28,703 nt of DNA. It comes from a virus. Of this stretch, positions 2,331-28,660 are shown one piece after another (within the stretch, counting starts at the first letter, position 1; each line of letters begins with the position of its first letter). The DNA is taken from IMG/VR virus record IMGVR_UViG_3300020203_000073, positions 1 through 28,703 of that record. One strand, 5' to 3'. Made by a program: the position numbers and the translations under genes. Below the pieces are notes generated by a model. It ran no database searches. It was given only the letters and a program-made list of their open reading frames with translations, and had not been told where the DNA came from.

Positions 2331-3308
2331 ATGACAATCGAACCCGAAGACACCCCGTTGGGGTTGGCCGGAACAGGGCTGCGCGACATCCGTCCTGACG
2401 ACGAAGACGACGAAGACGACGAATTGGTTACGCCAATGTTCCCCGGCGAACAGCAGACTGTAGATCACATTTCAGTATCCAGCGTAAGCCGGATGGCTGG
2501 GGACAAAGTGACAGTGGCGGTGGCATACAACGAGCGCCTGTGGGAGCGTTGGGTTTTAAGTTGTTTTGGACACAAGATTGAAACAATTGTCTTAAAAACC
2601 CCGTCTACTTTTCTGGCTTACATCGTCCATTATTCTTCCGACTCTGGCAACAACCATGAGCAATTATCGGTATTGCCTACCGACCCCGTAAAACTTGTTT
2701 TTCCGCGTACTTCCACCCCGCCGCCCGTTCCCCCGTCCACAGAAAGCGATGAGGACGACGAGGACGACGATAACGATAAGGACAATGAGCCAACGAAAAG
2801 CGAAAGCTGCAAACTCACCGAAGGCGCAACGACAGCCGTCATCCGCTACGACCCGGCGCAAGACGCGGCGGTACAAGCGTATGTGAAGGCCTCAGACGGG
2901 TTACAGAAACGCGGGTTTCAGTTTGCCGCGAAGGTCGCCTATTACGACGGCGAGATGATTGCAGTGACCTACATCCGTACGGGTAGCGTGGGAACGGGTA
3001 GCGGGGTGCTGACGGAAAGCGCCCCGACTTCGTGGGTAAATGCTATCAACGAAATCATAGATGATGAGGACGAGGACGAGACGGGGTTAACGTTGATTCA
3101 GATGGACGGCATATTGTACGGCGCACAGTCTACGATCAAAGAAATACATGCGAAAGGCGGCACATGGGTGCAGGCCGCCGCTCTCCATAACCAACTGGCG
3201 CAAGACCGCCTAAGCGAGAATAAGTCTGCGCTCAAGGCCAAGCAATCAAGCCGCCGCGAAGCGCTGTTTACTCAATTTAGCCAACCAACGGAGATGACCA
3301 ATGAATAA
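2331..3308 (+). CDS. Acidic protein with Asp/Glu tracts, unknown function
   Basis: This protein of about 325 residues has no family that I recognise. Three strongly acidic tracts (DDEDDEDDE near residue 20, SDEDDEDDD near 140, DDEDEDE near 245) separate more ordered parts. Two of these parts look alike: one around AVAYNERLWERW and one around AVIRYDPAQDAA, each followed about 25 residues later by a short beta-like stretch (LAYIVHY, IAVTYIRT). The second also resembles the start of the 5000-5578 product (AIVTYDP...LDDLQ), so a small domain may be shared. ATG 2331 sits 5 nt after AAGGA; ATG 2328 and 2304 are upstream alternatives. It is the first gene behind the 2262 promoter and overlaps the next gene by 8 nt. 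Acidic phage proteins are sometimes DNA mimics, but nothing here proves that. Confidence 0.72.
   Translation: MTIEPEDTPLGLAGTGLRDIRPDDEDDEDDELVTPMFPGEQQTVDHISVSSVSRMAGDKVTVAVAYNERLWERWVLSCFGHKIETIVLKTPSTFLAYIVHYSSDSGNNHEQLSVLPTDPVKLVFPRTSTPPPVPPSTESDEDDEDDDNDKDNEPTKSESCKLTEGATTAVIRYDPAQDAAVQAYVKASDGLQKRGFQFAAKVAYYDGEMIAVTYIRTGSVGTGSGVLTESAPTSWVNAINEIIDDEDEDETGLTLIQMDGILYGAQSTIKEIHAKGGTWVQAAALHNQLAQDRLSENKSALKAKQSSRREALFTQFSQPTEMTNE
3274..3304 (+). repeat. Gene-junction direct repeat J1, first copy (31 bp)
   Basis: This segment, from AATTTAGCCAACC to GATGACCAATGA, recurs exactly at 3876-3906. Here it encodes the last residues of the acidic protein (FSQPTEMTNE) and the start codon of the next gene at 3301. 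In the second copy it is non-coding apart from the start of the gene at 3903. Three more bases match upstream after a single mismatch. Confidence 0.95.
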
Positions 3309-3850: not shown

Positions 3851-3875
3851 TAATTTGCCTTAATCGAATTAACTA

Positions 3876-3906
3876 AATTTAGCCAACCAACGGAGATGAC
3901 CAATGA
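3876..3906 (+). repeat. Gene-junction direct repeat J1, second copy (31 bp)
   Basis: This is an exact copy of 3274-3304. It supplies the ribosome-binding site (CGGAG) and the ATG (3903) of the next gene. Since the segment is a natural coding junction at 3274 and non-coding here, the first copy looks ancestral and this one the by-product of an insertion or duplication. Confidence 0.95.
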
Positions 3907-4409: not shown

Positions 4410-4581
4410 CCTGCTGCCGCATGTTGATTTCGATGCCGATACCGAACTGTTCCCGGTGTCCGATTTCAGCGAGCCGTACTCCGCTAACAGATTGCTTCTG
4501 GAAGCTGATTACGTGGTGACGGATTTTGGTAACTTGTCCGCGCTGGTCGCGGAAGCGCTGACGGCGGGGGTAGCGCGATGA
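4396..4581 (+). CDS. Small hypothetical acidic protein (61 aa)
   Basis: This short acidic protein (MLTLNLLPHVDFDADTELF...) has no recognised domain. It is supported by context: its ATG overlaps the end of the previous gene by 14 nt, a GGGAGG sequence lies about 6 nt upstream (4384-4389), and its stop overlaps the next start in an ATGA (4578-4581). Such coupling fits a compact phage operon. A function cannot be suggested. Confidence 0.6.
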   Translation: MLTLNLLPHVDFDADTELFPVSDFSEPYSANRLLLEADYVVTDFGNLSALVAEALTAGVAR

Positions 4582-5003
4582 TGATTGACCGTTCCCCGAT
4601 TGACCGCCTGCACACCGAAATCGTGGAAAATCTTGACCGGGCGCTGACTAAAAGCGGTTATCCGCATCAACCCGGTAAATCGCTCATTGGGCGAGTGATT
4701 ACATTGGTCTCTGAACTCAAGTCGCTCCGTACCCAGACAGCAGAATTCGTTAACTTACAAACGCAGTTCTCGTCAGTGTTCAATAAACTGGATCGCTTTA
4801 AACGGCAGCTTGAAACCATTCGCGCCCAGCTAGACAACGCGGGTATCCCGTCGGCTGTCTTCACACTTGAAGGCCAGTTTAAACGCGTCCGGTTGCTCAT
4901 TGATCGTGAAAACGCCGCCCGTCAACAGGTCATCACGCTCACCGCCGAGCGCGATCTGCTTGCCCGTAAACTTAAAGTCAAAGAAAAAGAGGATGCAAAA
5001 TGA
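4578..5003 (+). CDS. Hypothetical coiled-coil protein
   Basis: This 141-residue protein is predicted to be almost all helix with heptad-like patterns from about residue 48 to the end (VSELKSLRTQTAEF, RFKRQLETIRAQL, TAERDLLARKLKVKEKED). Two ATG codons lie in tandem (4578 and 4581). The first overlaps the preceding stop and the protein's own stop overlaps the next start (ATGA at 5000-5003). Its last codons form the 48-bp junction repeat found again at 6955-7002, where they are no longer part of a gene. Structural or scaffolding roles are typical of such proteins, but nothing specific can be assigned. Confidence 0.7.
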   Translation: MMIDRSPIDRLHTEIVENLDRALTKSGYPHQPGKSLIGRVITLVSELKSLRTQTAEFVNLQTQFSSVFNKLDRFKRQLETIRAQLDNAGIPSAVFTLEGQFKRVRLLIDRENAARQQVITLTAERDLLARKLKVKEKEDAK

Positions 5004-5007
5004 CCAC
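4960..5007 (+). repeat. Gene-junction direct repeat J2, first copy (48 bp)
   Basis: This segment covers the last codons of the coiled-coil gene (ending KVKEKEDAK), the ribosome-binding site AAAGAGGATG and the first codons (ATGACCAC) of the next gene. It recurs at 6955-7002 with one mismatch (G at 4977, A at 6972). This is a second case of a duplicated gene junction in the block. Confidence 0.95.
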
Positions 5008-5578
5008 TATTTATCAATTTTCTAGCACAGAAGAAACAACACCTCGCGAGCCTCGCACTCTGCGTTACGCGCCCGAAATCGGTAAGCGCACCGCCATCGT
5101 CACCTATGACCCACTCGATACTGATGAACGGAATCTGGCGATTAAAGCGCTGGACGACCTGCAAGACCGGGACTGGAACATCATCAGCACGACCACCCCC
5201 GCGCACAATCACGGCTTCATCACGGTCATGCTCACCCGCTACATCTTCGCCACGCCCGACCCCGAGCCAGTCGCACTGGTTGAAGTTCCCGTTGAGGTTA
5301 AGCCCGAACCCGAAGTTCGCACCGTTACGGGAACGCTCATTATGGATGTGTATGAACTCGATGCACATATTTACGGGGGGTCGTTGAGCAATCCGACCTT
5401 CATTGAGGCGTTGCGCTCCAAGCAGTATTCATTGGATGAGCTAAAAGCAGTTGGCAACAATGCGCCAACCGTTCAGCATGGCAAAGAAATAATTTTGGAT
5501 GCCATTGAAAAGTTGATGCGCCCACCGTCTTTCCCCTTTAGACCGTTTGGATTACCCGCTGAGGTGCAGCAACCATGA
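5000..5578 (+). CDS. Hypothetical protein sharing a small domain with the acidic protein
   Basis: This 192-residue protein is of unknown family. Its first part (about residues 30-80: RTAIVTYDP, IKALDDLQDRDW, GFITVMLTRY) resembles a segment of the 2331-3308 product (TAVIRYDP...DGLQKRGFQF...IAVTYIRT), which suggests a common alpha/beta module. A Pro/Val/Glu linker (EPVALVEVPVEVKPEPEV, near residues 92-109) leads to a second part (TLIMDVYELDAHIYGG) that may correspond to TLIQMDGILYGA in the same acidic protein. The ATG at 5000 is coupled to the previous stop and GAGGA lies just upstream. The gene overlaps the next by 4 nt. The paralogy is my reading by eye and no function is implied. Confidence 0.7.
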   Translation: MTTIYQFSSTEETTPREPRTLRYAPEIGKRTAIVTYDPLDTDERNLAIKALDDLQDRDWNIISTTTPAHNHGFITVMLTRYIFATPDPEPVALVEVPVEVKPEPEVRTVTGTLIMDVYELDAHIYGGSLSNPTFIEALRSKQYSLDELKAVGNNAPTVQHGKEIILDAIEKLMRPPSFPFRPFGLPAEVQQP

Positions 5579-6219
5579 CCATGACACAAGACCCACAAAC
5601 CGAAACCGCACGTCAACTCGTCGCCGTCCAGAAGCGCATCGGCGCGCTAGCAGATGGACAAGCGACATTGGGAGAAATTTGGGCATCCTTAAACACCGTC
5701 TACCTCAAAGCGCAAGAGGCGAACGATCAAGAGACACTCGCCGCAGTTCCGGCAATTTGGGAACGCGCCGAGCAGCTTGCGAATACCAGCGCAGCCGCAA
5801 TCACGGTTGCGGGTGGCGCACTTGAGATTGCAGGAGCGGTAGCCTTGCAGCGCGACGAAGCCGCGAAAGCCTACAAAGAGTTACACAAGGCGGCGGTTGA
5901 TGGCGATGGCAAACACCCCGTCATCGGTCAGCTTATCGAGGCAGTTGAAGAACATGTCCATGAGTTCATGGAAGAGATGGAAGCCATCCATTACCAAGAC
6001 AGTCCCGAAGACGATATGCAAGTCGCCCACGAAAACGTATCGGGCGAACTTGAGAAAATCGGCGTAAGCCAAAAAGCAGCGATTCGGTTTGCAAATTGGA
6101 CACTTTACTACACCCTCATAGAGGTTACACCGGAGCAGGGCAAAGCCCTTGCTGCTGCTATTGAAGTGCTGTTCGGCGGTACACATCCCGAATGGGAGGA
6201 TGAATTAGATGACGAATAA
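5575..6219 (+). CDS. Hypothetical alpha-helical acidic protein
   Basis: This 214-residue protein is rich in Ala, Glu and Gln, mostly helical, with a hydrophobic Ala/Gly stretch near residues 76-90 (AAITVAGGALEIAGAVAL) and an acidic C-terminus (WEDELDDE). The start ATG 5575 overlaps the preceding stop (ATGA) and its end overlaps the next start at 6209 by 11 nt. No enzymatic motif or transmembrane segment is convincing. It belongs to the same coupled gene block as its neighbours. Confidence 0.7.
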   Translation: MTMTQDPQTETARQLVAVQKRIGALADGQATLGEIWASLNTVYLKAQEANDQETLAAVPAIWERAEQLANTSAAAITVAGGALEIAGAVALQRDEAAKAYKELHKAAVDGDGKHPVIGQLIEAVEEHVHEFMEEMEAIHYQDSPEDDMQVAHENVSGELEKIGVSQKAAIRFANWTLYYTLIEVTPEQGKALAAAIEVLFGGTHPEWEDELDDE

Positions 6220-6733
6220 TACCCTCGCCCTACACCCGTCGCACATCGACCAAGAGGTTATGGAAGGCGCGCTCGTTAAGCCTGATCGCCTAGAAGCCCT
6301 ACGCACCTGTTTCGAGTGGCTGATAACACCCAACCTCGAAGATGTCCAGATGGTGGAGTACCTCGCTGAGATGTGGGGATTGATCGCCAGCATGGACTCG
6401 GACGTGCGCCACCTGACCAAAGCCTATCAGGGCGCGATGGGTATGGCATCAGAGTTCCTGAGTCAGCGTGATGCGGTGTTGGATGAGAACGCGATTGATG
6501 TAAAAGACGCAGAGAAAAACGGTCAGCAGCGGCTGATCGGTGATCTGGCGCAGGCGCTTAATATGGGCATCGCGCAGACGGAGCGCATCATTGATATGTT
6601 GACGGGCGACGATGATGTGATTTACATCAGTCGCTTTGACCTATACGAAGCGCTACGGAAAGTCAGCAGTGAGATTGAGGAAGCCTTAGCCTGTGACGAC
6701 GAAGCAGGGGAGGGCGACCCGGACGACGATTAA
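6209..6733 (+). CDS. Hypothetical helical protein, paralog of the 3903 gene
   Basis: This 174-residue acidic helical protein ends in a strongly acidic tail (CDDEAGEGDPDDD). Its region QRLIGDLAQALNMGIAQTE...IIDMLTG aligns by eye with DQLISQIARTLDIKSKTA...LLELLTG of the 3903-4409 product, and both end with a short helix after this motif. The ATG at 6209 is within the end of the previous gene, with GGGAGG 5' of it at 6195-6200. The stop is followed by the folded RNA candidate rather than another gene, so this ends the coupled cluster. Confidence 0.72.
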   Translation: MTNNTLALHPSHIDQEVMEGALVKPDRLEALRTCFEWLITPNLEDVQMVEYLAEMWGLIASMDSDVRHLTKAYQGAMGMASEFLSQRDAVLDENAIDVKDAEKNGQQRLIGDLAQALNMGIAQTERIIDMLTGDDDVIYISRFDLYEALRKVSSEIEEALACDDEAGEGDPDDD

Positions 6734-6737
6734 ACCT

Positions 6738-6936
6738 TTGTCAGCGACTCCATAGCTAAAGCTAGGGGCTTGTAGCAATGCAAGCCGTGCTGACCAGACT
6801 CAGTTCCCTTCGGGGAACTCCGTTAGTGGTGAATACATAGGCACTTTGGGATGCTTCTCCATTCCCAAACTCTGCGGTACACGATTAAACAGGCTGAGGG
6901 TCTAAGTCAGTGTCGTGTACACAAAACCACCGCATA
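6738..6936 (+). ncRNA. Structured non-coding RNA candidate (HEARO/omega-RNA-like architecture)
   Basis: The gap between two genes folds into many perfect stems: GTCAGC (6740-6745) with GCTGAC (6789-6794); inside it GGCTTG (6767-6772) with CAAGCC (6781-6786); AGTTCCC (6802-6808) with GGGAACT (6813-6819) closing a TTCG tetraloop; TTTGGGATG (6845-6853) with CAT-T-CCCAAA (6860-6869, one bulge); TGCGG (6873-6877) with CCGCA (6930-6934); TACACGA (6878-6884) with TCGTGTA (6913-6919); and CTGA (6894-6897) with TCAG (6907-6910). The pairing spans about 200 nt without an ORF. The length, the successive stems and the GGTGAATACAT segment between them recall HEARO RNAs (omega-RNA guides of IscB elements), which also occur without a nuclease gene. 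No IscB is present here. The structure is directly visible; the family name is an inference and could be wrong. Confidence 0.6.
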
Positions 6937-6954
6937 ACATTGTTGAGGAGACCA

Positions 6955-7002
6955 TTGCCCGTAAACTTAAAATCAAAGAAAAAGAGGATGCAAAATGACC
7001 AC
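6955..7002 (+). repeat. Gene-junction direct repeat J2, second copy (48 bp)
   Basis: This is a near-exact copy (47 of 48 bases) of 4960-5007. Here the upstream half is a coding relic: it encodes the C-terminal residues of the 4578 gene but has no gene before it. It now provides the ribosome-binding site AAAGAGGATG and ATG for the gene at 6995. The two copies bracket three genes and the RNA candidate. Confidence 0.95.
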
Positions 7003-7948
7003 GCAAACCCTAGAGCCAACCCAAACCGCTACCGTCGTCGGACAGCGCGTTCACATTCCCGGCTTTGGCTACGGCACGATTACCGAAGTCCGCTTGCTGA
7101 TTACGGCGTGGGCAGTCATCGAGACATCAGGCTTCTGCCATCCGATGCGCTATGCCGTCCGGTTGGAGAAAGCGGAAGCCCTCGCCCGTGAGCAGAACCA
7201 CTGGACACCGGAAGCCGCGCCCTCGCTACCTGCCGCCGATACCGTTATCCAGTTAGCCGAAAAAGCCATCAGCCAACCGCCTTCGGTGTTTTCGGCGCAA
7301 GACCACCTGACGGACATGCCGCTGGAACATGCCATTGACTCTATTCAGTATGAAGATATCATCTTCAAAGTTACTCATAAGAACGGCGCACACCAAATCA
7401 GCGGTAGTATGAATGACGCGGCCTACAGCAATTTTCTAAGGATATGGATGCAGGGCATTAGATCGCCATTAGCACCCCCGTTTGTGGTGTCCCTGAAAGA
7501 TATGACCGCCGTCATTGATAACGAGCAACCCGGTCAGCCTTCCGTGACTGCTGACCAGTATCAGCAAATTTTCAGTGCGCTGATCGCCGAGCGCGTAGGA
7601 CATCAGGTAGCAAATCGCAAGTTGGCAGCCGCATACGATCTGGCGCAAGCGCGGGTTGCAGAACTCGAAAGCGAATACCTTGAACAGAGCCTAGCGGTTA
7701 CTGATTTGGTGCCCTACAAGGGCGTTGTAGAGGGCATACGTGCTATCTGTGACGAAGCCTACGGAGAACACCTACATACCCCCGTTTACGACCTCGTATA
7801 CGGTCTTGGGAAAACGTTCAAAGAGTTCATTGCCCTGCACAAGGTAAATGTTGGGTTGGAAATGGAACTGCATAAACTGATTACCGCCCTTGACGCGGAG
7901 CGGGAACGGAACGCGGTCTTGGTTAATCATTGGGCTGATGGCAAATAG
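6995..7948 (+). CDS. Hypothetical protein, 317 aa
   Basis: The N-terminal 60 residues (VVGQRVHIPGFGYGTITEV ... HPMRYAVRLE) look like a small beta-barrel of the kind that begins with a glycine-rich 'GTI' turn. A middle alpha/beta part (IIFKVTHKNGAHQISGSM, FVVSLKDMTAVID) follows. The C-terminal third is helical and probably coiled coil (AAYDLAQARVAELESEYLEQ, then LEMELHKLITALDAERE). No catalytic motif is recognised. The ATG at 6995 uses the GAGGA of the duplicated junction. A GC-rich hairpin (7960-7981) lies immediately downstream, so this is probably the last gene of its transcript. Confidence 0.7.
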   Translation: MTTQTLEPTQTATVVGQRVHIPGFGYGTITEVRLLITAWAVIETSGFCHPMRYAVRLEKAEALAREQNHWTPEAAPSLPAADTVIQLAEKAISQPPSVFSAQDHLTDMPLEHAIDSIQYEDIIFKVTHKNGAHQISGSMNDAAYSNFLRIWMQGIRSPLAPPFVVSLKDMTAVIDNEQPGQPSVTADQYQQIFSALIAERVGHQVANRKLAAAYDLAQARVAELESEYLEQSLAVTDLVPYKGVVEGIRAICDEAYGEHLHTPVYDLVYGLGKTFKEFIALHKVNVGLEMELHKLITALDAERERNAVLVNHWADGK

Positions 7949-7959
7949 GCGTTCTGTGA

Positions 7960-7981
7960 CCCCCCCCTAAAAATTGGGGGG
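7960..7981 (+). terminator. C-run/G-run hairpin after the 6995 gene
   Basis: Eight C (7960-7967) can pair with six G (7976-7981) across a loop of TAAAAATT. The stem is very stable, but no T-run follows: the downstream sequence is TGAAACC and then the 7991 promoter. It separates the 2331-7948 block from the next transcription unit and may act as a Rho-independent-like block or an insulator. Confidence 0.5.
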
Positions 7982-7990
7982 TGAAACCTA

Positions 7991-8019
7991 TTGACAGTAT
8001 ACATATTTTGGTTTATACT
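7991..8019 (+). promoter_or_regulatory. Strong promoter of the winged-helix gene (repeated module E)
   Basis: Consensus -35 TTGACA (7991-7996), a 17-bp spacer and -10 TATACT (8014-8019). The surrounding 56 bp (7988-8043) recur at 28586-28641 with a single mismatch, including the untranslated leader TTTATAGCTTAGATAAACAC. AGTATA at 7996-8001 and TATACT at the -10 form an inverted repeat, which could be an operator. Confidence 0.88.
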
Positions 8020-8071
8020 TATTTTTATAGCTTAGATAAACACCCGCGCACACGGGGAAGGAAACAAAATC

Positions 8072-8623
8072 ATGGCAAAAGTAACGGCAGCGCAAAAAAG
8101 CATCTTGGAAGTAATGGCAAACGGCGAAACAATTTTCAAAGATTATCGCGGTATGCACTTATTAGGCAACAAGACGGTCAGCATTACAACACTGAATTCG
8201 CTGTTGGATGCGCGCCTAATTCAATATGAGAAAATGGTTCGGGGGGTTCAGACCTACTCCATAACCGAAGCAGGCCGTAGCATCGTTACCCCGATTGCCG
8301 AACCAATCGTTGAGACCACGCCAATCGTTGAAATCGTTGAGACCGCCGCCGACGTGGAACGTACCAGCGAACTAGTAGCCACAATCGCCGCAAATCTGAA
8401 CACAGACGATATAAACCCCACCTTCGACATTGGCAACGGCAATGTTGCCAAAGCCTCTAAATGGTTTTGCGAGGAGCGCGCCCAGTTAATTTTCAGCATT
8501 GGCTACTACGAGGAAGGACTCGGCCTCGTAAACGCCGACGAATTTGCAACCTTCGGGAATCTGATTGTAGGGATGGAAAGACTTTCTGGCGATCTTGGCC
8601 TTTGGCACATCAGCGAGGAATAA
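8072..8623 (+). CDS. Winged-helix DNA-binding protein, putative regulator
   Basis: Residues 4-70 have the pattern of a winged helix-turn-helix domain: AAQKSILEVMANGE, then VSITTLNSLLDARLIQYEK (recognition helix region), then the wing TYSITEAGRSIV. A linker of Pro/Ile/Val/Glu/Thr repeats (about 73-92: PIAEPIVETTPIVEIVETAA) leads to an unrecognised C-terminal domain of about 80 residues containing FDIGNGNVAKASKWF. ATG 8072 is preceded by GGGGAAGG at a good distance. It has its own strong promoter, whose leader is shared with the gene at 28661, and it is the last plus-strand gene before the convergent late operon. A role in phage transcription control is plausible, but it has not been matched to a known repressor. 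Confidence 0.75.
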   Translation: MAKVTAAQKSILEVMANGETIFKDYRGMHLLGNKTVSITTLNSLLDARLIQYEKMVRGVQTYSITEAGRSIVTPIAEPIVETTPIVEIVETAADVERTSELVATIAANLNTDDINPTFDIGNGNVAKASKWFCEERAQLIFSIGYYEEGLGLVNADEFATFGNLIVGMERLSGDLGLWHISEE

Positions 8624-8655
8624 GCAAGCCAGTCAGCAGACCCCCGATAAACAAA

Positions 8656-8689
8656 AACCCGACGAAAGACAACATGCCTTCGCCGGGTT
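8656..8689 (-). terminator. Terminator between the convergent blocks
   Basis: AACCCG (8656-8661) pairs with CGGGTT (8684-8689), extended by CGAAAG against CTTCG with small bulges. On the minus strand the stem is followed by TTTTGTTTAT, so it fits an intrinsic terminator for the late operon ending at 8759. On the plus strand the hairpin lacks a T-run but may still stop transcription from the 8072 gene. Confidence 0.8.
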
Positions 8690-8758
8690 CTCCTATCCCC
8701 CGCCACCCCTGTTCACTGGGCAGCGGTTTCCAAGTTAGCTTAGTTTGCGGGGAACGGG

Positions 8759-9526
8759 TCATACCAGCGCCAGCCTACCCACACGGGCGGCAAAGGTCAA
8801 CTTGCTTGCTGTTATCTTGAGGAAGCCGCCGCCCCTCCCCGATTGTCCGTTATCCTGCCACGAAAGCCACAGCGGATCGTGTACCTGAAAACTGTCACCC
8901 TCGTAACCGACCACAACGAGCCAATGGTAGCCTTGCTGGATTCCTGTCAACAAGTGGTTTTTGAACCCCAAGTCAGCATAATTAACCAGTAGGATAATCG
9001 GCTTTCCACGATCTAATTCTAGACGGAGGAATCCGGGAACGTCATTAGTCAGCACGTTTTGCAGCAGCGAGAGGCTAAAGCGACCTGCAAGCTGCTGTAA
9101 CTGTTTTGCTGTCGTCTTCCCGTAAACGATGTCCGTCAGGTCTTTGACATTAATCGACCCGCTGCCACGCCCATAGAAACGCATTAGCATCGCAATACAC
9201 GCTTGACCGCAGTCAAAACTACCTGGAGATGTTACGCGGTCAAGTTGAGAGAGCCACTCCACTCCCAACCGTACACCGTCCCCGCTTTCCGGTATCAAGG
9301 GAATCTCTTGCAGGTACACCCCGAATCCGCTGACCGTTTGCTCTGCTGCCCATCCGCCGCTTGTGATTTCGCGCCACACGTAGCCACCATCGAGAACCGC
9401 CGTCATGCAGGTTACAAGTTGACCCGCAGACAGCTTACCTGTAATCTTGGCGGCCTTGCGTGGGGCAGCGCGGATATTCAACCAGTCAACAATGACGCGG
9501 CATTGAGCGCCAAAGGGTGCTGTCAT
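8759..9526 (-). CDS. Endolysin-like SH3 + C39-family cysteine peptidase
   Basis: The N-terminus (about residues 10-65) is a bacterial SH3 domain (VIVDWLNIRAAP ... ITGKLSAGQLV ... WREIT), which commonly binds cell-wall peptide. Residues about 85-235 match papain-like C39_2 peptidases: SFDCGQAC with the catalytic Cys near 106, YHWLVVVGY with His near 201, and VHDP with Asp near 217. Enzymes of this design cut peptidoglycan or other peptide links, so this is the best candidate for the phage lysin. ATG 9526 was chosen; a TTG at 9547 is in frame. It is the last gene of the minus-strand late block, behind several membrane proteins, and is followed by a terminator. No signal peptide is seen, so export would need a holin. 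Confidence 0.82.
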   Translation of the reverse strand: MTAPFGAQCRVIVDWLNIRAAPRKAAKITGKLSAGQLVTCMTAVLDGGYVWREITSGGWAAEQTVSGFGVYLQEIPLIPESGDGVRLGVEWLSQLDRVTSPGSFDCGQACIAMLMRFYGRGSGSINVKDLTDIVYGKTTAKQLQQLAGRFSLSLLQNVLTNDVPGFLRLELDRGKPIILLVNYADLGFKNHLLTGIQQGYHWLVVVGYEGDSFQVHDPLWLSWQDNGQSGRGGGFLKITASKLTFAARVGRLALV

Positions 9527-9569
9527 CCCGCCGCCACCAATTTCCAAACGCTGTCATAGCTCATCAAAG

Positions 9570-10178
9570 TTAGCCTTTTGCGTCTTCAGGATCGGTTCTG
9601 TTGAAGAGTTTGGCGGCGTTGGCTTTGATCGCTTCGGCATCCTGTTTAATCTCATCTAGCGTGACGTTAGTTTCGCCCCGCGCCGCCTTCGTAATCGTGT
9701 CCGCGCCGACTGCCAGTAAACGGTTATCGACTTGCGTGAATTTAAGCAAATCCAGCGTCCGCATTTTATCAGCGATACTCTCAAGGCTTGTTTGCAGTGC
9801 AGGGCGCAAGAATTCAGGGACTTCATTCCGTGCAGCCTGAATAGCCACTGCCGTAAACTTATTCAACAAGACAAATGCGCCAACCACCACGCCAACCAAA
9901 ATTGCCAGTATTTTGTTAAACAAGGGCGTGACCTCCGTGCTGACGGCATCGCGTACTTCGGCTTCTAATGCGCCTGCATCTACCAACGGTGCGACGGCGG
10001 TCACTTCTGCCGTTGCCTCAACAGTGACGACCTCAATTGGGGCAGCGGTCACTTGGGGCGCGGTGTCCGTGTTAACGGGTAGCGGGTCTTCTGTAGATTG
10101 CGCCAGCGCGGGATAGATGGCGGCGGTCAGCAGGAGCGTGGCAATCAAGATGACAAGTATGCGGGTAATGTGTTTCAT
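9570..10178 (-). CDS. Secreted/membrane-anchored protein of the lysis region
   Basis: MKHITRILVILIATLLLTAA followed by IYPALAQS is a good signal peptide with likely cleavage after ALA. Next comes a low-complexity linker rich in Thr, Val, Ala, Glu and Pro (residues about 27-65). A second hydrophobic helix (ILAILVGVVVGAFVLL, near 88-105) is followed by a helical C-terminal domain ending in acidic/basic residues. ATG 10178 has GGAGA about 9 nt upstream; a GTG at 10199 is less likely. The linker style (VEATAEVTA) is frequent in Chloroflexota secreted proteins. Position next to the lysin and other membrane proteins suggests a role in lysis, such as a spanin-like or holin-associated protein, but no family was recognised. 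Confidence 0.7.
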   Translation of the reverse strand: MKHITRILVILIATLLLTAAIYPALAQSTEDPLPVNTDTAPQVTAAPIEVVTVEATAEVTAVAPLVDAGALEAEVRDAVSTEVTPLFNKILAILVGVVVGAFVLLNKFTAVAIQAARNEVPEFLRPALQTSLESIADKMRTLDLLKFTQVDNRLLAVGADTITKAARGETNVTLDEIKQDAEAIKANAAKLFNRTDPEDAKG

Positions 10179-10210
10179 GGTTAAATCTCCTCTATACACA
10201 AGTGTGCTGG

Positions 10211-11017
10211 TTATACAGTTAATTCGGGAACGGGTTCGGTCAACTCTACGGCTAACAGTTGGTCGGTAGACTTGGGCGCAAGGTCGTGCAGGTTCGTGAC
10301 CTGCTGCCGCAATTCCACCATCTCCTGAAAGATAGACTTATTCATTTGCTGGCTATCTTCAACTTTCCTAAGTGCGTCGTTGCGCTCATCGCGCAGTCGC
10401 TTGATTTCCGCGTCCTTACCCATATCCGCCGTCACAAGACGATCAAGGTTTTTCTCCATCGCTTCAACCCGATTAGCGATTTCTTTCAGGGTCGCATTTT
10501 CCTTAGCCATTGCGAGGAGTTCCGCCGTCCGCGCCTGAAAGTCAGTGCTTATTTTTTCAAGTATCTGCACCGTGCGATCATGGATTACTGTTAACTCGCG
10601 ATGTGAGGCTTTCCAGAAATCCAGTTGCGGGGTTAGTGCGCTGAGTTCGCTTTCAACTGACTGCAAGGCTTCGGACTTGGCGGAAAGATTCATGGTCGCA
10701 TCTTCAAGTCTGCGCCCCAGCACCCCGTAAGCATCTCTTGACTTTGATATTTCCATTCTAAACTGTTCGGTAATATCAGCGAGTAGGTTATCGCGTCGAT
10801 TCTCAGTTTCGGATTTAGCGCGGGATGCTTCGATTTCAAGTTGCTGGTTTGCCTCATCTAGATCAAGTTGCATTCGCGCCCGTTCTGAATCCAATTTGAT
10901 TTGTGCCGCTGCTTCGGCGTGGCGTAGTTCCTGCTTGTATTTCAACCGCAGTACCAGCACACCTATCCAGGGACCGACAATGATAGTTAAAATTGCGATA
11001 ATTAGTTCGTTAGACAT
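10211..11017 (-). CDS. N-terminally membrane-anchored long coiled-coil protein
   Basis: MSNELIIAILTIIVGPWIGV gives one N-terminal transmembrane helix, followed by about 240 residues of nearly continuous coiled coil (ELRHAEAAAQIKLDSERARM, MEKNLDRLVTADMGKDAEIK and others). This topology resembles spanin or Rz-like proteins and some tail-anchored phage proteins, though it is much longer than a typical Rz. ATG 11017 is the natural start for the membrane helix. A strong AAGGAGG lies about 26 nt further upstream near an in-frame TTG at 11059, so the exact start is uncertain. A candidate extended -10 promoter lies at 11072-11080. Confidence 0.72.
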   Translation of the reverse strand: MSNELIIAILTIIVGPWIGVLVLRLKYKQELRHAEAAAQIKLDSERARMQLDLDEANQQLEIEASRAKSETENRRDNLLADITEQFRMEISKSRDAYGVLGRRLEDATMNLSAKSEALQSVESELSALTPQLDFWKASHRELTVIHDRTVQILEKISTDFQARTAELLAMAKENATLKEIANRVEAMEKNLDRLVTADMGKDAEIKRLRDERNDALRKVEDSQQMNKSIFQEMVELRQQVTNLHDLAPKSTDQLLAVELTEPVPELTV

Positions 11018-11071
11018 TTGTTTATTCGCGTATTGACCGCGCCCCTCCTTTCTGTACAAGTGTTCTATTTA

Positions 11072-11080
11072 ATTGTAGCA
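11072..11080 (-). promoter_or_regulatory. Possible extended -10 promoter
   Basis: On the minus strand TGC-TACAAT forms an extended -10 element. It resembles the TGTGCTAGAAT and TGTGCTACCAT elements of the late leader modules. No good -35 is seen at 17 bp. It lies in the 80-bp gap before the 10211-11017 gene. Confidence 0.4.
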
Positions 11081-11097
11081 TACACGGCGGCTACTTA

Positions 11098-11373
11098 TTA
11101 AAGAACCTCATTAGATTTTTTGGTCAGTAGTTCCTTGAGTTTGTCGATTGTATCCTGCATTAAAAGAATGGTCGTTGCGTCTTTGAGCATCTTCTCGCGC
11201 TGCTCATCAACGAGCGTCTGCTCACGCCTTAGAACCTTCCGAATCAACAGCCCAACCGTTGGCGATGTTCGGAGGGAAAAATAGCGCGTTGCCAGCACAA
11301 GGAAAATAATCACACAGACATCTAATAGGATGCCCACTGAAATCAGTACGGCGAGTTTCTGGATTCGTTTCAC
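11098..11373 (-). CDS. Small membrane protein with coiled coil, holin-like candidate
   Basis: Starting at GTG 11373, which has AGGAGG 7 nt upstream, the protein begins VKRIQKLAVLISVGILLDVC and continues VIIFLVLA, one strong transmembrane helix. The rest (about 60 residues) is charged and helical (RREQTLVDEQREKMLKD, DTIDKLKELLTKKSNE). An in-frame ATG at 11418 lacks a good ribosome-binding site. Length (91 residues), single membrane helix and location between other membrane proteins and the lysin fit a holin or antiholin, but no known holin class was recognised. Confidence 0.65.
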   Translation of the reverse strand: MKRIQKLAVLISVGILLDVCVIIFLVLATRYFSLRTSPTVGLLIRKVLRREQTLVDEQREKMLKDATTILLMQDTIDKLKELLTKKSNEVL

Positions 11374-11469
11374 CTCATTCCCTCCTATCCACTTCGGCGC
11401 GTACTTGGCAACAAGCATTCTGTTACCCCGTTTACTACAACCCGCCCAGTTTCGGTCAAATTATTTTAC

Positions 11470-11631
11470 CTATGTAAATGTGAGTTTGCAAAGGTTTACA
11501 GGGTCGCTTGTTTTTACCCGCCGCGCTGTCGGTAGCAGTATGCCAATCCCTAGAACCGCCATGTAAATCAGGCTGATAACTGCGATCACCGGAAAACAAA
11601 GGATGCCGATAACGGTGTACAGCGTATTCAT
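11470..11631 (-). CDS. 53-aa small membrane protein, holin candidate
   Basis: This small gene is supported by translational coupling: its ATG (11631-11629) overlaps the stop of the upstream gene in an ATGA. It encodes MNTLYTVIGILCFPVIAVIS and then LIYMAVLGIGILLPTARR, i.e. about 34 hydrophobic residues that form one long or two short membrane helices, followed by a basic turn and a short polar tail to a TAG stop. Size, hydrophobicity and place in the lysis region suggest a small holin or similar pore-forming peptide. The membrane nature is clear; the function is inferred. Confidence 0.68.
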   Translation of the reverse strand: MNTLYTVIGILCFPVIAVISLIYMAVLGIGILLPTARRVKTSDPVNLCKLTFT

Positions 11632-11918
11632 TCAGCGCTAATTTTGGTAAGGCGTTCAATAACTTCTCTTGCACGGTCACCGCCGTCTTGAGACCCCCCC
11701 GCGTAAAACGCCAGAGCGTCAAACAACACTACAAACCGCTGCTTCAAAACAACTAATATAGCCGAATTCTCCTCAGCCACATCAATGTAATGCCGGATGC
11801 TGTCGTGGTCAACCGGAAATGAATATTGCTTTTGCGCCTCTTCGAGCAAAAATTCTATGGGCGCATTAAAAGCGTTATCGTATAACTTGGCACGTTCTTT
11901 TTCACGATGATGATTCAT
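11628..11918 (-). CDS. Small hypothetical protein (96 aa)
   Basis: This is a soluble, mostly helical protein (MNHHREKERAKLYDNAFN ... AREVIERLTKISAE) with a hydrophobic middle (NSAILVVLKQRFVVLFDALAF, residues about 51-71) that is interrupted by charges and is therefore probably not a membrane helix. Both ends are coupled: its ATG overlaps the stop of the SH3 protein gene and its stop overlaps the start of the 53-aa membrane protein. It may cooperate with that membrane protein, but no family was recognised. Confidence 0.68.
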   Translation of the reverse strand: MNHHREKERAKLYDNAFNAPIEFLLEEAQKQYSFPVDHDSIRHYIDVAEENSAILVVLKQRFVVLFDALAFYAGGSQDGGDRAREVIERLTKISAE

Positions 11919-12931
11919 CGCAAATCCGTCAACATATCTTGTACGGTTTTGAGCGCAATCTCGATTTCCCTAATCGCCATCAGGACAGCGGTAATCCTGT
12001 CCAGCGCTGGCTTAATCACACTTTCAGGGTCAATGATTGGCGGGGTCAGTGTGACCGGATCAAAATGGATTGAAAACGTAGGCGCTATGCTGACCACCCA
12101 TCCAACCGCTGCCGCTGCCGCAATCTTGCGCCAAGTGAAGTCACCCGACACCCGCTCATCAGCATACACGTTTACGATTTCGCCATTCAGCAGTGTCCCG
12201 GTTATCTCGCTATCCGTTGACGGCGTACTGCGGATGTTGCTTTTGCCGTGCGCCAGCACAGCGCGACGGCGTACCGAATCTGGTAGATGAATAGTGTCCG
12301 GGTCAACCGCTTGCCCAAATGCAGTAATCGGCGGCATCTTCAGCCATTCAATCGTTTCGCGGGGATAACCCGCCTTGATGCCAGCAGGAGCGTAATGCGT
12401 CAGTTTAGAGGCTTGATTGCCGTCGGGCGACTGATGCCCAATCAACCCGTGACCACGCGCAAACCACATCGTATCAAATGGTAATTGACCGGGCAGCGAA
12501 ACCGACATCTGGATCGCATCCAACTTTTGCCCCGTCGGGATGAGGTAGGCGGGGTTGTGCGCTACCAGTTTGATAACGTGGGCAAGGTCGCCCCAATTAG
12601 AAATCACGCCATCCGGTTTTCGGTAATGGGTAATCTTGGTCGCCATCGTAAACGTTTCCCCGACTGCCATAAATCGCGGACACCACGCTGCGCCGCTGCC
12701 GGGTGGGTCGCCTACCATGTACATCAGGCCGCCGCCTTGCGACGTGTCTACCGTGCGCCCGATTACGTCGTCGGCGGCGTAAAAGCCTTCATATTGATTA
12801 TTCTTGACTTGGTAGAACGTCTTGCCAACGATGTCGGTGTAGCAGAGTTCTTCAGCACCGGAATTGTGCGTTAGGACGTATTCGCGCCCGTCGCCGCGTA
12901 TATAGGCAAGGATGTCGAATTTCTCAGTCAT
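11915..12931 (-). CDS. SH3-domain protein, possibly tail- or wall-associated
   Basis: This 338-residue protein has three parts. The N-terminal 210 residues are beta-rich and unassigned (with Trp/Gly/Tyr-rich stretches such as FDTMWFARGHGLIGHQS). Residues about 223-283 form a bacterial SH3 domain (AVLAHGKSNIRSTPSTDSEI, then GTLLNGEIVNVYADE and FTWRKI...GWV). A short C-terminal helix follows (ALDRITAVLMAIREIEIALK). SH3 domains of this kind bind bacterial cell walls, so a role in wall binding or wall degradation during entry or lysis is likely. It sits between tail genes and the lysis region and is coupled to both neighbours by ATGA overlaps. The catalytic nature of the N-terminal part is unknown. 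Confidence 0.72.
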   Translation of the reverse strand: MTEKFDILAYIRGDGREYVLTHNSGAEELCYTDIVGKTFYQVKNNQYEGFYAADDVIGRTVDTSQGGGLMYMVGDPPGSGAAWCPRFMAVGETFTMATKITHYRKPDGVISNWGDLAHVIKLVAHNPAYLIPTGQKLDAIQMSVSLPGQLPFDTMWFARGHGLIGHQSPDGNQASKLTHYAPAGIKAGYPRETIEWLKMPPITAFGQAVDPDTIHLPDSVRRRAVLAHGKSNIRSTPSTDSEITGTLLNGEIVNVYADERVSGDFTWRKIAAAAAVGWVVSIAPTFSIHFDPVTLTPPIIDPESVIKPALDRITAVLMAIREIEIALKTVQDMLTDLR

Positions 12932-13245
12932 GGTCGTTTTACCTGTAGATAAATAGCATCATCTATTTGCCCTTTGCAAGTTGCGTAAGGCAAGCTATGA
13001 CGAACTAAAACATAGCGCCCGTCAGAAAGTTGCCCCGTGACACAAAAACGATAGGACGCATTTCCCATAACAATACGGTGTTCAGTGTTAATCTCAAGGC
13101 TTGCCCCGCCAACAAGAATAATATTACCTTCTACAACCCATTCTTTTACCCAATTAGCGTGATGGTATATCGTGATGAGAAAAGTCAAGCCCAGAATACA
13201 CAGTATTAGAATAAGCACACTACACAGGTGCGATTGTTTGAGCAA
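12928..13245 (-). CDS. Small membrane-anchored hypothetical protein
   Basis: About 105 residues with an N-terminal hydrophobic helix (CSVLILILCILGLTFLITIY) followed by a beta-rich domain of about 70 residues (GNIILVGGASLEINTE ... YRFCVTGQLSDGRYVLV). The start is uncertain: TTG 13245 overlaps the Tal gene by 26 nt, and GTG 13218 comes right after that gene's stop. The 3' end overlaps the next gene by 4 nt (ATGA). It could be an exported or membrane protein altering the host surface, for example in superinfection exclusion, but this is only suggested by topology and place. Confidence 0.62.
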   Translation of the reverse strand: MLKQSHLCSVLILILCILGLTFLITIYHHANWVKEWVVEGNIILVGGASLEINTEHRIVMGNASYRFCVTGQLSDGRYVLVRHSLPYATCKGQIDDAIYLQVKRP

Positions 13246-15049
13246 CGCCTTGTATCCTTACATTTAACTCAATATTGCCTTGCGAAGCCCACGCTTGATT
13301 CAGTGGGCTATTAACCCCAACGTCGCCTATTCGCTCTTCACATTGAAATCGGATTGGGTGATCCGAATACATTCCGTTGGAGGAATTAATGATTAAATCA
13401 GTAATATCACATTCTACATCTACTGCCGTATTTACTGCAATTGCCCACGGGCCCCCATATTGCGTAGAAACATTAACGTTGTCTACCCAAAGCGATATAC
13501 CAGATGGATACTGATCGTGATAAGTTAGACTCCAAAAAATAGGCAAATTGACTTGATGATCGTGTATGCCGACGGCGGGAGACGAGGCTGTAAAAAACGG
13601 TGCTGAAAATCCGGTTGTTACGTACAAAGGCGAGGTTTTAAATCTGATCTTAACTCTGGTAATTTCCGTCACCGAATTGTCAACTTCAATTTTAAAGTTT
13701 GCCCATTTCGTATCACCATCACCCAGCCCGTTTTGCATGGTATCCGTCCAAGTATTTTCGCTCCAGTACGCCGCAATCGCAGGCCGCCTAAATTGCGCCT
13801 TTAATTTCTCAACAGCGTTGACTACATACATCGCTTCATCTTCTACCTGCTGCTGTACGTTACTGATTTCCAACGACACCCCAAATCCGCCGTCAGCACC
13901 CACGCGCTCGTTTACCTTGAGGACGTAAAAGGATTGCTCAATGTCTTGGTCGGGCAGCGGTTTACCGTGTGCGTCCAACACCTGTCCGCGATAGCTGACA
14001 TTTACCATGTCACCGGGTCGGATCGTCTTACGGCATTTCCTGAGCGTAATCCGGTATACAGTTTGCGGGATGCTGTGGTCGTCTAAATAGGCGCGTCCTG
14101 CATCGTAAACCATGTTAGACGATTGCTGTTTACCCGCCAGCGAATTGCTGACAACGGTGATGTCTTCAAAGGTGACGGTCTTCATACGGATGCCGTAAGC
14201 GGCAATGCTAGCCTCATCCATCATATACCAAAGAGTTTGCCCGGCGGGCCCGATCATCGTCCGAATGTTTTCACGAGTGGAATAGCGTAGATCAAGCGCC
14301 CCGACACCCGTTCCGTTCCCAAAAGGCAGTATCCAGTTGACAATATCCTCGCTGTCACTGGTAACGCTCATGGTTTCGATGAATGCCACATCATCGTTAT
14401 TCTGTACGCTGAGTGAAACACTGTACGGCGGCGTGAGGCATTGCAGCACAACCGCCCCGCCAAACTTGCCAATTTCGACCACGTTATCTAGCGGACTAGG
14501 CGTGTCCAGTTTTTGCCGTAGATGAAGGCCGCGCCCCTTGATTAATGTTTGCAGCGCCTTGAGGACAGAGCCGCCGTCCATCCGTGCCTCAATGAGGTCA
14601 TCCATATAGGCGCTTTCCACTTCCACACGCCAGTTTCCCGACAGCACGGTAGCGCTGCTCGTGAGGTCTGTTACCACGTCCTCAAATCGCGTATTTCGGT
14701 AGACGCGCCCCGTCAGCACATCGTAGTTCTTGAGTTCGTCCAAAATGTCGGGACCGTCAAACGAGCGCGATTCGCCCGTTGCCGCAATCCGGCGGTTGCG
14801 TTTTCTCAGGAGTGCCGCACCCAGTTGACGGACAACCCCGTTCTGGTTCACGTAAACCCGTATACGGCTCTCGTTATCCAGTAAACGGATAGCGCGCTCA
14901 TCGCTGCCGAGGATTTCAATTTGCACACTGCCAGCGCCATCTAGAATACGGCTGACGCTGGCGCTCACTAGCGGGATAGGTCCCTCGGCGGCAGTCGATT
15001 TGCTCCAGTCGGGAGCGTGAAGTTCCGCCCATAAATACAAACCCGTCAT
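13220..15049 (-). CDS. Tail-tip hub protein (Tal / siphovirus Gp37-like) with C-terminal binding region
   Basis: The N-terminal 370 residues have the character of tail-associated hub proteins: short beta domains with PIPLVSASVSRILDGAGSVQ, ESRIRVYVNQNG, FDGPDILDELKNYDVLTGRV and a helix (GGSVLKALQTLIKGRGLHLR), then a segment IRPGDMVNVSYRGQVLD typical of the siphovirus ReqiPepy6 Gp37-like group. A short helix (EAMYVVNAVEKLKAQFRR) links to about 190 C-terminal residues of beta-sandwich type, probably for receptor binding. Here a fibre-like gene stands between Dit and this gene, unlike the common order. Its ATG overlaps that gene's stop (TAATG). The hub assignment is an inference from pattern and position. 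Confidence 0.72.
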   Translation of the reverse strand: MTGLYLWAELHAPDWSKSTAAEGPIPLVSASVSRILDGAGSVQIEILGSDERAIRLLDNESRIRVYVNQNGVVRQLGAALLRKRNRRIAATGESRSFDGPDILDELKNYDVLTGRVYRNTRFEDVVTDLTSSATVLSGNWRVEVESAYMDDLIEARMDGGSVLKALQTLIKGRGLHLRQKLDTPSPLDNVVEIGKFGGAVVLQCLTPPYSVSLSVQNNDDVAFIETMSVTSDSEDIVNWILPFGNGTGVGALDLRYSTRENIRTMIGPAGQTLWYMMDEASIAAYGIRMKTVTFEDITVVSNSLAGKQQSSNMVYDAGRAYLDDHSIPQTVYRITLRKCRKTIRPGDMVNVSYRGQVLDAHGKPLPDQDIEQSFYVLKVNERVGADGGFGVSLEISNVQQQVEDEAMYVVNAVEKLKAQFRRPAIAAYWSENTWTDTMQNGLGDGDTKWANFKIEVDNSVTEITRVKIRFKTSPLYVTTGFSAPFFTASSPAVGIHDHQVNLPIFWSLTYHDQYPSGISLWVDNVNVSTQYGGPWAIAVNTAVDVECDITDLIINSSNGMYSDHPIRFQCEERIGDVGVNSPLNQAWASQGNIELNVRIQGVAQTIAPV

Positions 15050-16125
15050 TAATTTTGCTCCACATAAAAACGACTCAGGCCAATGGAGCGCGTCACAGCA
15101 ACGAGGTTGTAGAAGGCCAAACCCGGTCCCAAGTCCGTCCCAACGGGTGGTAGGTTGGTACTGATGGTTGTTTCGGTGCTGTTGTTCACGGAAAAGTAAA
15201 CTACGCCGTTAGCGCTGTCTACCCGCGCCCGTAGTCTGTAGCGTGTGCTGACCGCTACCGTGCCGATTGCTGTGCCTGTGGTTTGGTTGCCTGAGTTGTC
15301 ATTGCATACAGGCCTCCATCCGGTATCTCCGGCAGCAGTGGAGTACCGAAAACCGATTAGCCCCGACCCAGAGGCTTGCGTGTCCACGTTGATCGCCCCG
15401 CTTGCGCCAAAAATGCCCACCCACACGCGAAGCGAACTGATGTCCGCTGTCGTCCGTAAGACCACTTCAATAATCGGGTCATACGCCCGACGTACCAAAC
15501 TGCCGACGATGTAAGCCCCGCTTAGCGAGTTGATCGTTGCGGAACTGGCAAAGTTGACGTAATTGCTATCCGACTGCATGGATTCGGTCAACGTGCCTGT
15601 GGTGGCCGGGGTAGCGGTCATTGTCGCCACGATTGCAGCTTGCGATGCTCTCCACATGAAAAAGCCGCGTGTGCCGGGAACGGGAATCGCGTTGGCCGCT
15701 TGCGGCGGGTTAAACATGCACCACTTAGCCAACGTGTGATTCCATATTAACCACAGGACTTCGGCAGGGTCGTCAAGCGTGTAATTCTCGCCATTAAGCC
15801 AGATATTGCCGACGTTATGCCGAACCACGACTACTCGCGCTGCGGACACCGAAGATAGCGCCAAAATCGGAATTAGCGAGGTTACTAGATTAATCGTAGA
15901 CAGATCATCCGTACTGGCAGCGGCTTGCGTGTCCACTAGATGACGGGTACGGGTGACGGTGATCGCATCGCTGACAAGTGTAAGGGTTGTGGGCAGCGCA
16001 AAGGCTTGCAGCGTCAAGCCGGATGTCCCCGCGATGAGGGCGTTGATGTTGCCGTCGATTTCGGTAAACCGCGTGTTAAAAAGTGTGGCGTTCCCGGTGT
16101 TGCCATTTGTGATAGGTGTATACAC
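15049..16125 (-). CDS. Tail fibre/receptor-binding-like protein
   Basis: This is a 358-residue beta-rich protein with many Thr, Ser, Ala and Val. The N-terminus (NGNTGNATLFNTRFTEIDGN, then INALIAG) is of a kind often found at the trunk-binding end of phage fibres. The middle (NVGNIWLNGENYTLDDPAEV) resembles short fibre domains. The C-terminal half (VYFSVNNSTETTISTNLPP, GLAFYNLVAVTRSIGLSRFY) resembles a lectin-like beta-sandwich. A GTG start at 16125 lies 9 nt after GGAGG; the upstream Dit gene ends in that same sequence. It likely helps host recognition at the tail tip. Confidence 0.68.
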   Translation of the reverse strand: MYTPITNGNTGNATLFNTRFTEIDGNINALIAGTSGLTLQAFALPTTLTLVSDAITVTRTRHLVDTQAAASTDDLSTINLVTSLIPILALSSVSAARVVVVRHNVGNIWLNGENYTLDDPAEVLWLIWNHTLAKWCMFNPPQAANAIPVPGTRGFFMWRASQAAIVATMTATPATTGTLTESMQSDSNYVNFASSATINSLSGAYIVGSLVRRAYDPIIEVVLRTTADISSLRVWVGIFGASGAINVDTQASGSGLIGFRYSTAAGDTGWRPVCNDNSGNQTTGTAIGTVAVSTRYRLRARVDSANGVVYFSVNNSTETTISTNLPPVGTDLGPGLAFYNLVAVTRSIGLSRFYVEQN

Positions 16126-16131
16126 TATTAG

Positions 16132-17001
16132 TTACCTCCAAGCGTCGTAGTAATCAAGTTCAAGTGAAACCGTGCTGGAAAATGCGCCGTTAATCCGAAT
16201 GCTGTTTGCGCCCGGACGCAAGATAATGAAGCCGTCGCCCACCAAGCGCGTAAACGGTGTAAAGGCCGCCGTCTTCACGCCGTTGTCAACGTGGTAAACC
16301 GCTAACTGCGAACTGTCTACAGCAAGCGTTTCGTTAGCTTGTAGACTGCCCTCCCATCGCCAGCGGTTGATGATCTCGCCCCATTCATTCAGGTGTGAGG
16401 CTTCGATGACGGTAGCGGTGCCGGGGGTTGCCACAAACTGCATGAGGATAGGGGTTTCAGCGCTCCCGTTATTGGTTGCCGTAATCAGGGTGCCGTTACC
16501 TACGCTGGTATTCGTCACCCGTGCGCCGCCGATAATCAGGCTGCTCCCAATGACAATATCGTCACCGATGTACCACGCGCCCGGCCACGCTAACCAGCGC
16601 GGGTCTTCCACTTGGAAATCAATCGTCACGGGTTGAAAGATGTCCGTGTACTGATCAAAGCGCTGCGGCATACTGATATTGTTGATCGTGGCATAGCAGA
16701 AGCGCTTATCTGCTGATGGGTTACTGGTTTCAATAAAGAGTTCCTGCTGCCCCTTTTGTAGGAGCGCGTTGACCGCATCCCGTTTCGCTGTCATCCCCGT
16801 TAACGTGTAATCAACTAAGGTAAACGAAATCGTCACCTTGCCCGATTCGATGGGCGGCGGGAAGCGCCCGTATTCATTGAAACTGCCATCCATCCCCGCC
16901 AACCGCGTCGTCCGTGGAACCGCATTCCTAAAGTTATCGGTAAAAGAGGACTGCTGCGTTGGGAAGGTGTAATTGCCAAACCGGACTAGTTTACTGGTCA
17001 T
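16132..17001 (-). CDS. Distal tail protein (Dit)
   Basis: The protein (289 residues) directly follows the tape measure gene with a 4-nt overlap, which is the usual place for Dit. The N-terminal domain (KLVRFGNYTFPTQQSSFTDN, then GKVTISFTLVDY, ALLQKGQQELFIET, and VTIDFQVEDPRW) has the beta-sheet ring pattern of Dit proteins that link tail tube to tip. The C-terminal part (GEIINRWRWEGSLQANETLA, GFIILRPGANSIRING, VSLELDYYDAWR) is the galectin-like sandwich found in larger Dit proteins. The family is supported by both sequence style and gene order. Confidence 0.82.
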   Translation of the reverse strand: MTSKLVRFGNYTFPTQQSSFTDNFRNAVPRTTRLAGMDGSFNEYGRFPPPIESGKVTISFTLVDYTLTGMTAKRDAVNALLQKGQQELFIETSNPSADKRFCYATINNISMPQRFDQYTDIFQPVTIDFQVEDPRWLAWPGAWYIGDDIVIGSSLIIGGARVTNTSVGNGTLITATNNGSAETPILMQFVATPGTATVIEASHLNEWGEIINRWRWEGSLQANETLAVDSSQLAVYHVDNGVKTAAFTPFTRLVGDGFIILRPGANSIRINGAFSSTVSLELDYYDAWR

Positions 17002-20375: not shown

Positions 20376-20398
20376 TGATCTTTTCCTTCAAAACAAAA

Positions 20399-20466
20399 AA
20401 CGCCGCAGAATGTCTAAGACACTCTACGGCGTTCAGGAATTTAAACTTGTGGCGCTCAAGGCGCTC
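20399..20466 (-). promoter_or_regulatory. Late leader module, copy 1 (heptamers + terminator-like hairpin before the tape measure gene)
   Basis: Read on the minus strand: GAGCGCC (20466-20460), two bases, GAGCGCC (20457-20451), a 17-nt gap, then hairpin AACGCCGTAGAG ... CTGCGGCGTT (20433-20399), followed by TTTTTTGTTTT, AAGGA and the ATG of the tape measure gene. It has the form of an intrinsic terminator in a 5' leader. The 3' arm GGCGT can pair instead with the GCGCC of the heptamers. Copies 2 and 3 lie at 22333-22399 and 28425-28492. Confidence 0.85.
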
Positions 20467-22304: not shown

Positions 22305-22332
22305 TGATTCGCTGTTTTCCCGGTAAACGTAA

Positions 22333-22399
22333 AACGCCGTAGAATGTTAGACACTCTACGGCGTTCTGTGGTTAAAAGTTTACGGCGCTCAAGGCGCTC
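22333..22399 (-). promoter_or_regulatory. Late leader module, copy 2 (before the tail terminator gene)
   Basis: On the minus strand: GAGCGCC (22399-22393), two bases, GAGCGCC (22390-22384) followed by GTA, an 18-nt gap, then the hairpin AACGCCGTAGAG ... CTACGGCGTT (22365-22333) with TTTACGTTTACC after it. The second heptamer plus GTA (GCGCCGTA) can pair with the hairpin's 3' arm TACGGCGT over 8 positions with one G-U pair. This would break the hairpin, giving a terminator/antiterminator choice. Confidence 0.85.
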
Positions 22400-28406: not shown

Positions 28407-28424
28407 GGAGTCCCGCCAATAAAA

Positions 28425-28492
28425 AACGCCGCAGAATGTGTTAGACACTCTACGGCGTTCTCGTAATCGGTATACGGCGCTCTGGGGCGCTC
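28425..28492 (-). promoter_or_regulatory. Late leader module, copy 3 (before the protease-scaffold gene)
   Basis: On the minus strand: GAGCGCC (28492-28486), three bases, GAGCGCC (28482-28476) followed by GTA, a 16-nt gap, then the hairpin AACGCCGTAGAG ... CTGCGGCGTT (28459-28425), then TTTTTATTGGCGGG and the ATG at 28406. The GCGCCGTA can pair with the hairpin's 3' arm TGCGGCGT. The same arrangement occurs in copies 1 and 2. Confidence 0.85.
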
Positions 28493-28540: not shown

Positions 28541-28588
28541 CCTTAATTCAAAATCCCGTAAACGTTAACGGATTGCAGAAGTTGTCTA

Positions 28589-28617
28589 TTGACAATATAC
28601 ATATTTTGGTTTATACT
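28589..28617 (+). promoter_or_regulatory. Promoter of the gene at 28661 (repeated module E, second copy)
   Basis: Consensus -35 TTGACA (28589-28594), 17-bp spacer, -10 TATACT (28612-28617). The 56-bp block 28586-28641 is identical to 7988-8043 except for one base next to the -35. The leader then continues to the start codon at 28661. Confidence 0.88.
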
Positions 28618-28660
28618 TATTTTTATAGCTTAGATAAACACGCAAACGGAGAAATAAAAA

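Follow-up and report, generated by a model that had tools for sequence, protein, structure and literature searches.

A stand-alone HEARO RNA in a tailed phage, with a filled and empty site of a gene-less sister element

Introduction

HEARO is the guide-RNA scaffold (omega-RNA) of IscB, an RNA-guided nuclease that needs a motif 3' of its target. Stand-alone HEAROs are known from Chloroflexota, and Weinberg's original discovery study of 2009 reportedly described HEARO insertion before ATGA or GTGA. IscB omega-RNAs carry the spacer at their 5' end, a HEARO match is present in 65% of nuclease 5' UTRs, few HEARO nucleases adjoin TnpA, and more than 16% of the fragments with HEARO nucleases are likely viral or prophage-derived (PMC9755519). 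PMC11870625 is devoted to gene drive by insertion sequences that have RNA-guided nucleases.

Here we describe a HEARO in a viral contig, IMGVR_UViG_3300020203_000073. The window analysed is the whole IMG/VR record of 28,703 bases, which may be incomplete, and its tape measure, Dit, tail chaperone, capsid-like and N6/N4 methyltransferase genes are those of a tailed phage. Compared with the HEARO family RF02033, the window RNA is alike in length, helices, covarying pairs and 5' guide position but is followed by an unrelated phage gene instead of IscB. Copies in five related viral contigs (sister contigs) resemble IscB/HEARO mobile elements with IS200/IS605-like ends in having a HEARO at the left, a hairpin at the right and an ATGA right flank, and one of them also carries IscB. 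The window copy differs from such elements in lacking the right end, and the sister contigs differ in lacking TnpA and in that five of their copies are gene-less. Stand-alone HEAROs of Chloroflexota likewise consist of a scaffold without its own nuclease gene in genomes that have IscBs elsewhere, but they are chromosomal, whereas the window HEARO lies on a phage contig in which IscB was not found. The HEARO nucleases of viral contigs are an equally virus-borne system but were found via the nuclease gene (PMC9755519), while the window has the RNA alone.

Results

The RNA and its surroundings in the window comprise the following features; G001 is the sister contig IMGVR_UViG_3300020201_000050.

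4960..5007, + strand: other copy of the duplicated junction, between genes 4578-5003 and 5000-5578 (98% direct repeat)
6209..6733, + strand: upstream early gene of 174 aa, family not found, its last bases inside the guide
6720..6739, + strand: presumptive guide CGGACGACGATTAAACCTTT, the 16-20 nt that immediately precede the scaffold, placed by comparison with IscB omega-RNAs and because the flank shared with G001 stops at the HEARO start
6740..6958, + strand: full-length HEARO RNA (omega-RNA scaffold), by Rfam RF02033 match and covariation in 25 relatives
6748..6768, + strand: left-end hairpin CTCCATAGCTAAAGCTAGGGG in the HEARO 5' domain, counterpart of the sister right-end hairpin by sequence comparison
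6955..7002, + strand: 48-bp duplicate of 4960-5007 with early gene end, ribosome-binding site and ATGACCAC (98% direct repeat)
6995..7948, + strand: downstream gene of 317 aa, family not found, ATGA start

An initial annotation had proposed a structured RNA at 6738-6936, possibly a HEARO. That interval folds with a minimum free energy of -73.3 kcal/mol on the + strand (z = -4.0), a stability reached by none of 200 shuffles, and its reverse strand folds more weakly (z -2.3). A search of Rfam with cmscan matched RF02033 end to end (model positions 1-211 of 211) over window 6740-6958 with 135.5 bits (E 2e-28), against a curated cut-off of 83 bits. The structured RNA is thus real and the guess at its family was right; its place was nearly exact, while its limits have to be redrawn to 6740-6958. 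Of the consensus pairs, 65 have a place in the window HEARO, and 59 of these are standard pairs. The stem with the TTCG loop, the closing helices pairing TGCGGTACACGA with TCGTGTA...CCGCA and the bulged stems, all picked out in the initial annotation, are HEARO consensus helices. No long ORF crosses the gap, as had been noted, and indels that are not multiples of three in the alignment of relatives argue against a protein-coding interval. We consider it highly probable (roughly 85%) that the window RNA is a HEARO, that is an IscB omega-RNA, descended from a small IscB (IS200/IS605-like) mobile element whose left end is the HEARO. The alternative raised at the outset, an unrelated new phage RNA merely resembling HEARO, can be discounted given a complete-model match far over the cut-off and 88% identity to the HEARO directly upstream of a sister-phage IscB gene.

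Covariation was measured on 25 aligned HEAROs of viral and Chloroflexota origin, with the Rfam consensus as the structure tested. Across 59 pairs, 91.1% of cells are paired, a percentage somewhat favoured by the exclusion of pairs not formed in the window copy. With the partners shifted by 1-3 columns, pairing falls to 34-40%. Changes on both sides occur in 37 of the 59 pairs compared with 30.7 in shuffles, and not one of 500 shuffles reaches 37, so that the covariation by which the RNA was to be judged is present. The window HEARO diverges from the sister HEAROs by 11-13%, with paired changes, which points to selection on the structure at some stage in this lineage. These differences may predate the loss of the right end.

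Sister contig G001 was first met via the gene upstream of the window HEARO, and a HEARO 5'-domain pattern recovered it along with four more contigs. These five contigs contain six HEAROs above the cut-off; a seventh copy is cut by the end of contig G002, where its 3' part alone is visible. Among the copies readable to the right end, five are gene-less (368-370 bp) and one has IscB. The gene-less copies of G001 and G004 share one site, giving four distinct sites for the five. In all six readable copies the right flank begins at once with ATGA, which opens a reading frame, and the right-end hairpin resembles the HEARO 5' hairpin. Judged by eye, the right ends of IscB elements in other viruses and in Chloroflexota often precede ATGA or GTGA as well, and some do not; in part of these elements the right end is unreadable.

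The copy in sister contig G005 (IMGVR_UViG_3300020192_000319) defines an exact empty site in the window. G005 is 99.3-99.6% identical to window 8641-17231 and carries an insert of 368 bases precisely where window 11632 adjoins 11631. The insert consists of a 221-nt HEARO and a further 147 nt ending in ...CCCCATAGCTAAAGCTAGGGGTATCTCGCACCAATTTTG, its right-end hairpin is a repeat of that in the HEARO 5' domain, and no ORF longer than 30 aa was found within its 368 bp. The window sequence at this place reads CTTACCAAAATTAGCGCTGA, then ATGA.

11628..11651, - strand: empty site, a 20-nt guide match (11651-11632) followed by ATGA (11631-11628), located by the G005 insertion point

Two observations concern the contigs themselves. 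Contig IMGVR_UViG_3300020186_000112 stops partway through a second 368-bp element copy, which means that assemblies may break there and that copy numbers may be underestimated. G005 joins both places of a 56-bp direct repeat of the window (7988-8043 and 28586-28641), which includes a strong sigma-70-like promoter (TTGACA-17-TATACT), and the stretch from 28642 across the contig ends to 7987, including the window HEARO, is missing. The cause may be a deletion, a different arrangement or a join made in assembly.

At the window HEARO the left boundary is equally exact. The window is 98.8% identical to G001 from 5030 to the HEARO start, the identity ending at 6740/6741, and the G005 insertion likewise begins at the HEARO. 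G001 was rejected as the clean, empty counterpart of this site because it holds a different module past the boundary until window 8630. The right end, a hairpin followed by ATGA in six sister copies, is absent from the window copy: no right-end hairpin was found after 6958, degenerate forms included. A C/G-rich hairpin near 7960-7982 was dismissed as it is without the right-end layout. The place of the element remainder and right end of the sister copies is instead occupied by 6955-7002. The duplicated gene junction reported straight after the RNA is indeed there, with 98% identity over 48 nt to 4960-5007, the meeting point of two early genes, which includes a ribosome-binding site and ATGACC. 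Most simply, the duplicated junction took the place of the right part of an IscB-type element, in an order of events that we infer. A second duplicated gene-start junction lies at window 3267-3304 and 3869-3906, again with a ribosome-binding site and ATGACC. Together the two duplications suggest exchange of early genes at their start codons.

The RNA directly precedes the 317-aa gene that starts at 6995 with a ribosome-binding site of its own, a position that would also suit a cis-regulatory leader. We regard this as very improbable, since the ribosome-binding site belongs to the duplicated junction and lies outside the RNA, and since other HEAROs precede many unrelated genes as a consequence of insertion before start codons. 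No relatives of the 317-aa protein were found among viral contigs. A promoter scan of 4500-8100 returned sites no more numerous than in shuffles, with none near 6700.

No IscB is visible within the 28,703-base window by PF14239 (RRXRR) or by IscB similarity, as the initial annotation had it, and the TnpA Y1 transposase (PF01797) is absent from the window and from all five sister contigs. An IscB/HNH reading frame directly 3' of the HEARO is lacking in the window and present in G001. We take the lack of a downstream IscB to lower the case for a complete IscB element, not that for a HEARO RNA: the 65% figure for nuclease 5' UTRs, together with genomes that have more HEAROs than IscBs, indicates that a downstream IscB is usual, not universal. 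The IscB-bearing element of G001 is 1,581 bp long and comprises HEARO, a 432-aa IscB (RRXRR and HNH) and right end, followed by ATGACC. Its IscB has solved IscBs among its relatives, and its catalytic motifs look intact by eye. Outside the phage group the closest proteins are a viral IscB (75%) and Chloroflexota IscBs (65-70%).

The nearest non-phage relatives of both the window RNA and the sister-phage IscB are in Chloroflexota genomes, which bears out an early suspicion of a Chloroflexota link. We infer a Chloroflexota host for the phage. Against 400 Chloroflexota genomes the 368-bp element has best matches of 83% over 158 bp and 74% over about 270 bp; these were rejected as evidence of the host itself because such partial similarity marks relatives only. 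The window HEARO has no match in annotated phages, nor has the exact HEARO pattern in 84,980 genomes. In two Chloroflexota assemblies HEARO matches outnumber those of IscB (32 against 19 in G008 and 7 against 4 in G007, with weak and partial matches counted too), which means that stand-alone copies are no rarity. A separate 185-kb virus record, G012 (IMGVR_UViG_3300034684_000299), has six HEAROs along with four matches to IscB and a single TnpA, and is thus a heavily colonised viral genome.

Several other repeats are present in the window. An array of tandem 45-nt repeats at 883-1242 (six overlapping 135-nt register copies) lies inside ORF 794-1261, which resembles endonuclease VII families, and has many overlapping matches to related repeats of G001 and G004. 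The two N6/N4 methyltransferase genes (37-786 and 1252-2199) are near-identical in part, with 1-173 equal to 1297-1469 and 557-779 matching 1847-2069 at 94%. A 43-nt hairpin-like repeat (ACGCCGCAGAATGT...ACACTCTACGGCGTT) occurs in three copies (20392-20434, 22324-22366 and 28418-28460) in or beside gene gaps and has related copies in G002, G003 and G005. At 26328-28448 on the - strand a 706-aa protein includes a 2'-5' RNA ligase-like stretch that scores 26.6 bits against a Pfam cut-off of 27.

Discussion

The window HEARO is a stand-alone copy, either inert by now or dependent for its use on IscB provided in trans. With neither IscB nor right end it is probably immobile as a unit, leaving a trans guide as its only use. 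Our estimates for these two readings of present activity overlap with that for its identity and are not additive. At somewhat under even odds, the copy is an inert relic whose right end and any IscB were lost by the recombination that brought in the 48-bp junction, a reading that is compatible with HEARO identity and concerns present activity. The missing right end and IscB point this way, as does the duplicated junction straight after the scaffold. The search for targets points in the same direction: no match to the window guide followed by ATGA or GTGA was found in the sister contigs, where the only other guide site (G001:2031) has one mismatch and is followed by GTGG. A single viral-contig hit to the guide and RTGA pattern was set aside as chance, sharing only the 14 searched guide bases and being otherwise unlike the window. 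Against a relic stand the complete scaffold, far above the RF02033 cut-off, and the preservation of pairs among its differences from the sister copies, with the reservation on timing given above.

Conversely, the phage may keep an immobilised, gene-less HEARO as a guide in trans, with the IscB of a co-infecting phage or of the host cutting competing phage alleles. Guide and scaffold are intact in the window and a sister phage encodes an IscB; set against this, a target with the proper motif was found in neither sister nor viral contigs and the insertion shows no conservation beyond one phage. We consider retention as such a guide unlikely.

Our working model is as follows. Intact sister copies of the element lie directly before ATGA, the start codon of the next gene, and directly after a left flank that would serve as the guide. 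Read-through transcription of the early phage operon would produce guide and HEARO together, and an IscB acting in trans, such as that encoded by the sister phage or one of the many held by Chloroflexota, may bind them. The loaded nuclease would then cut alleles in which the guide sequence adjoins ATGA, i.e. the empty site, and the element may spread when the cut is repaired from the filled copy, or by means of an external transposase.

HEARO/IscB elements are already known, also in viruses; what is added here is a phage-borne minimal element with a natural pair of filled and empty alleles. The phage group contributes a gene-less 368-bp guide-RNA element, an IscB-bearing version of it and, in G005 and the window, an exact filled/empty pair. 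The ATGA flank suggests an insertion habit suited to phage operons, as the element always points the same way as the operon and does not disrupt the next reading frame. The filled/empty pair makes homing of an omega-RNA element between phages, with IscB provided in trans, directly testable.
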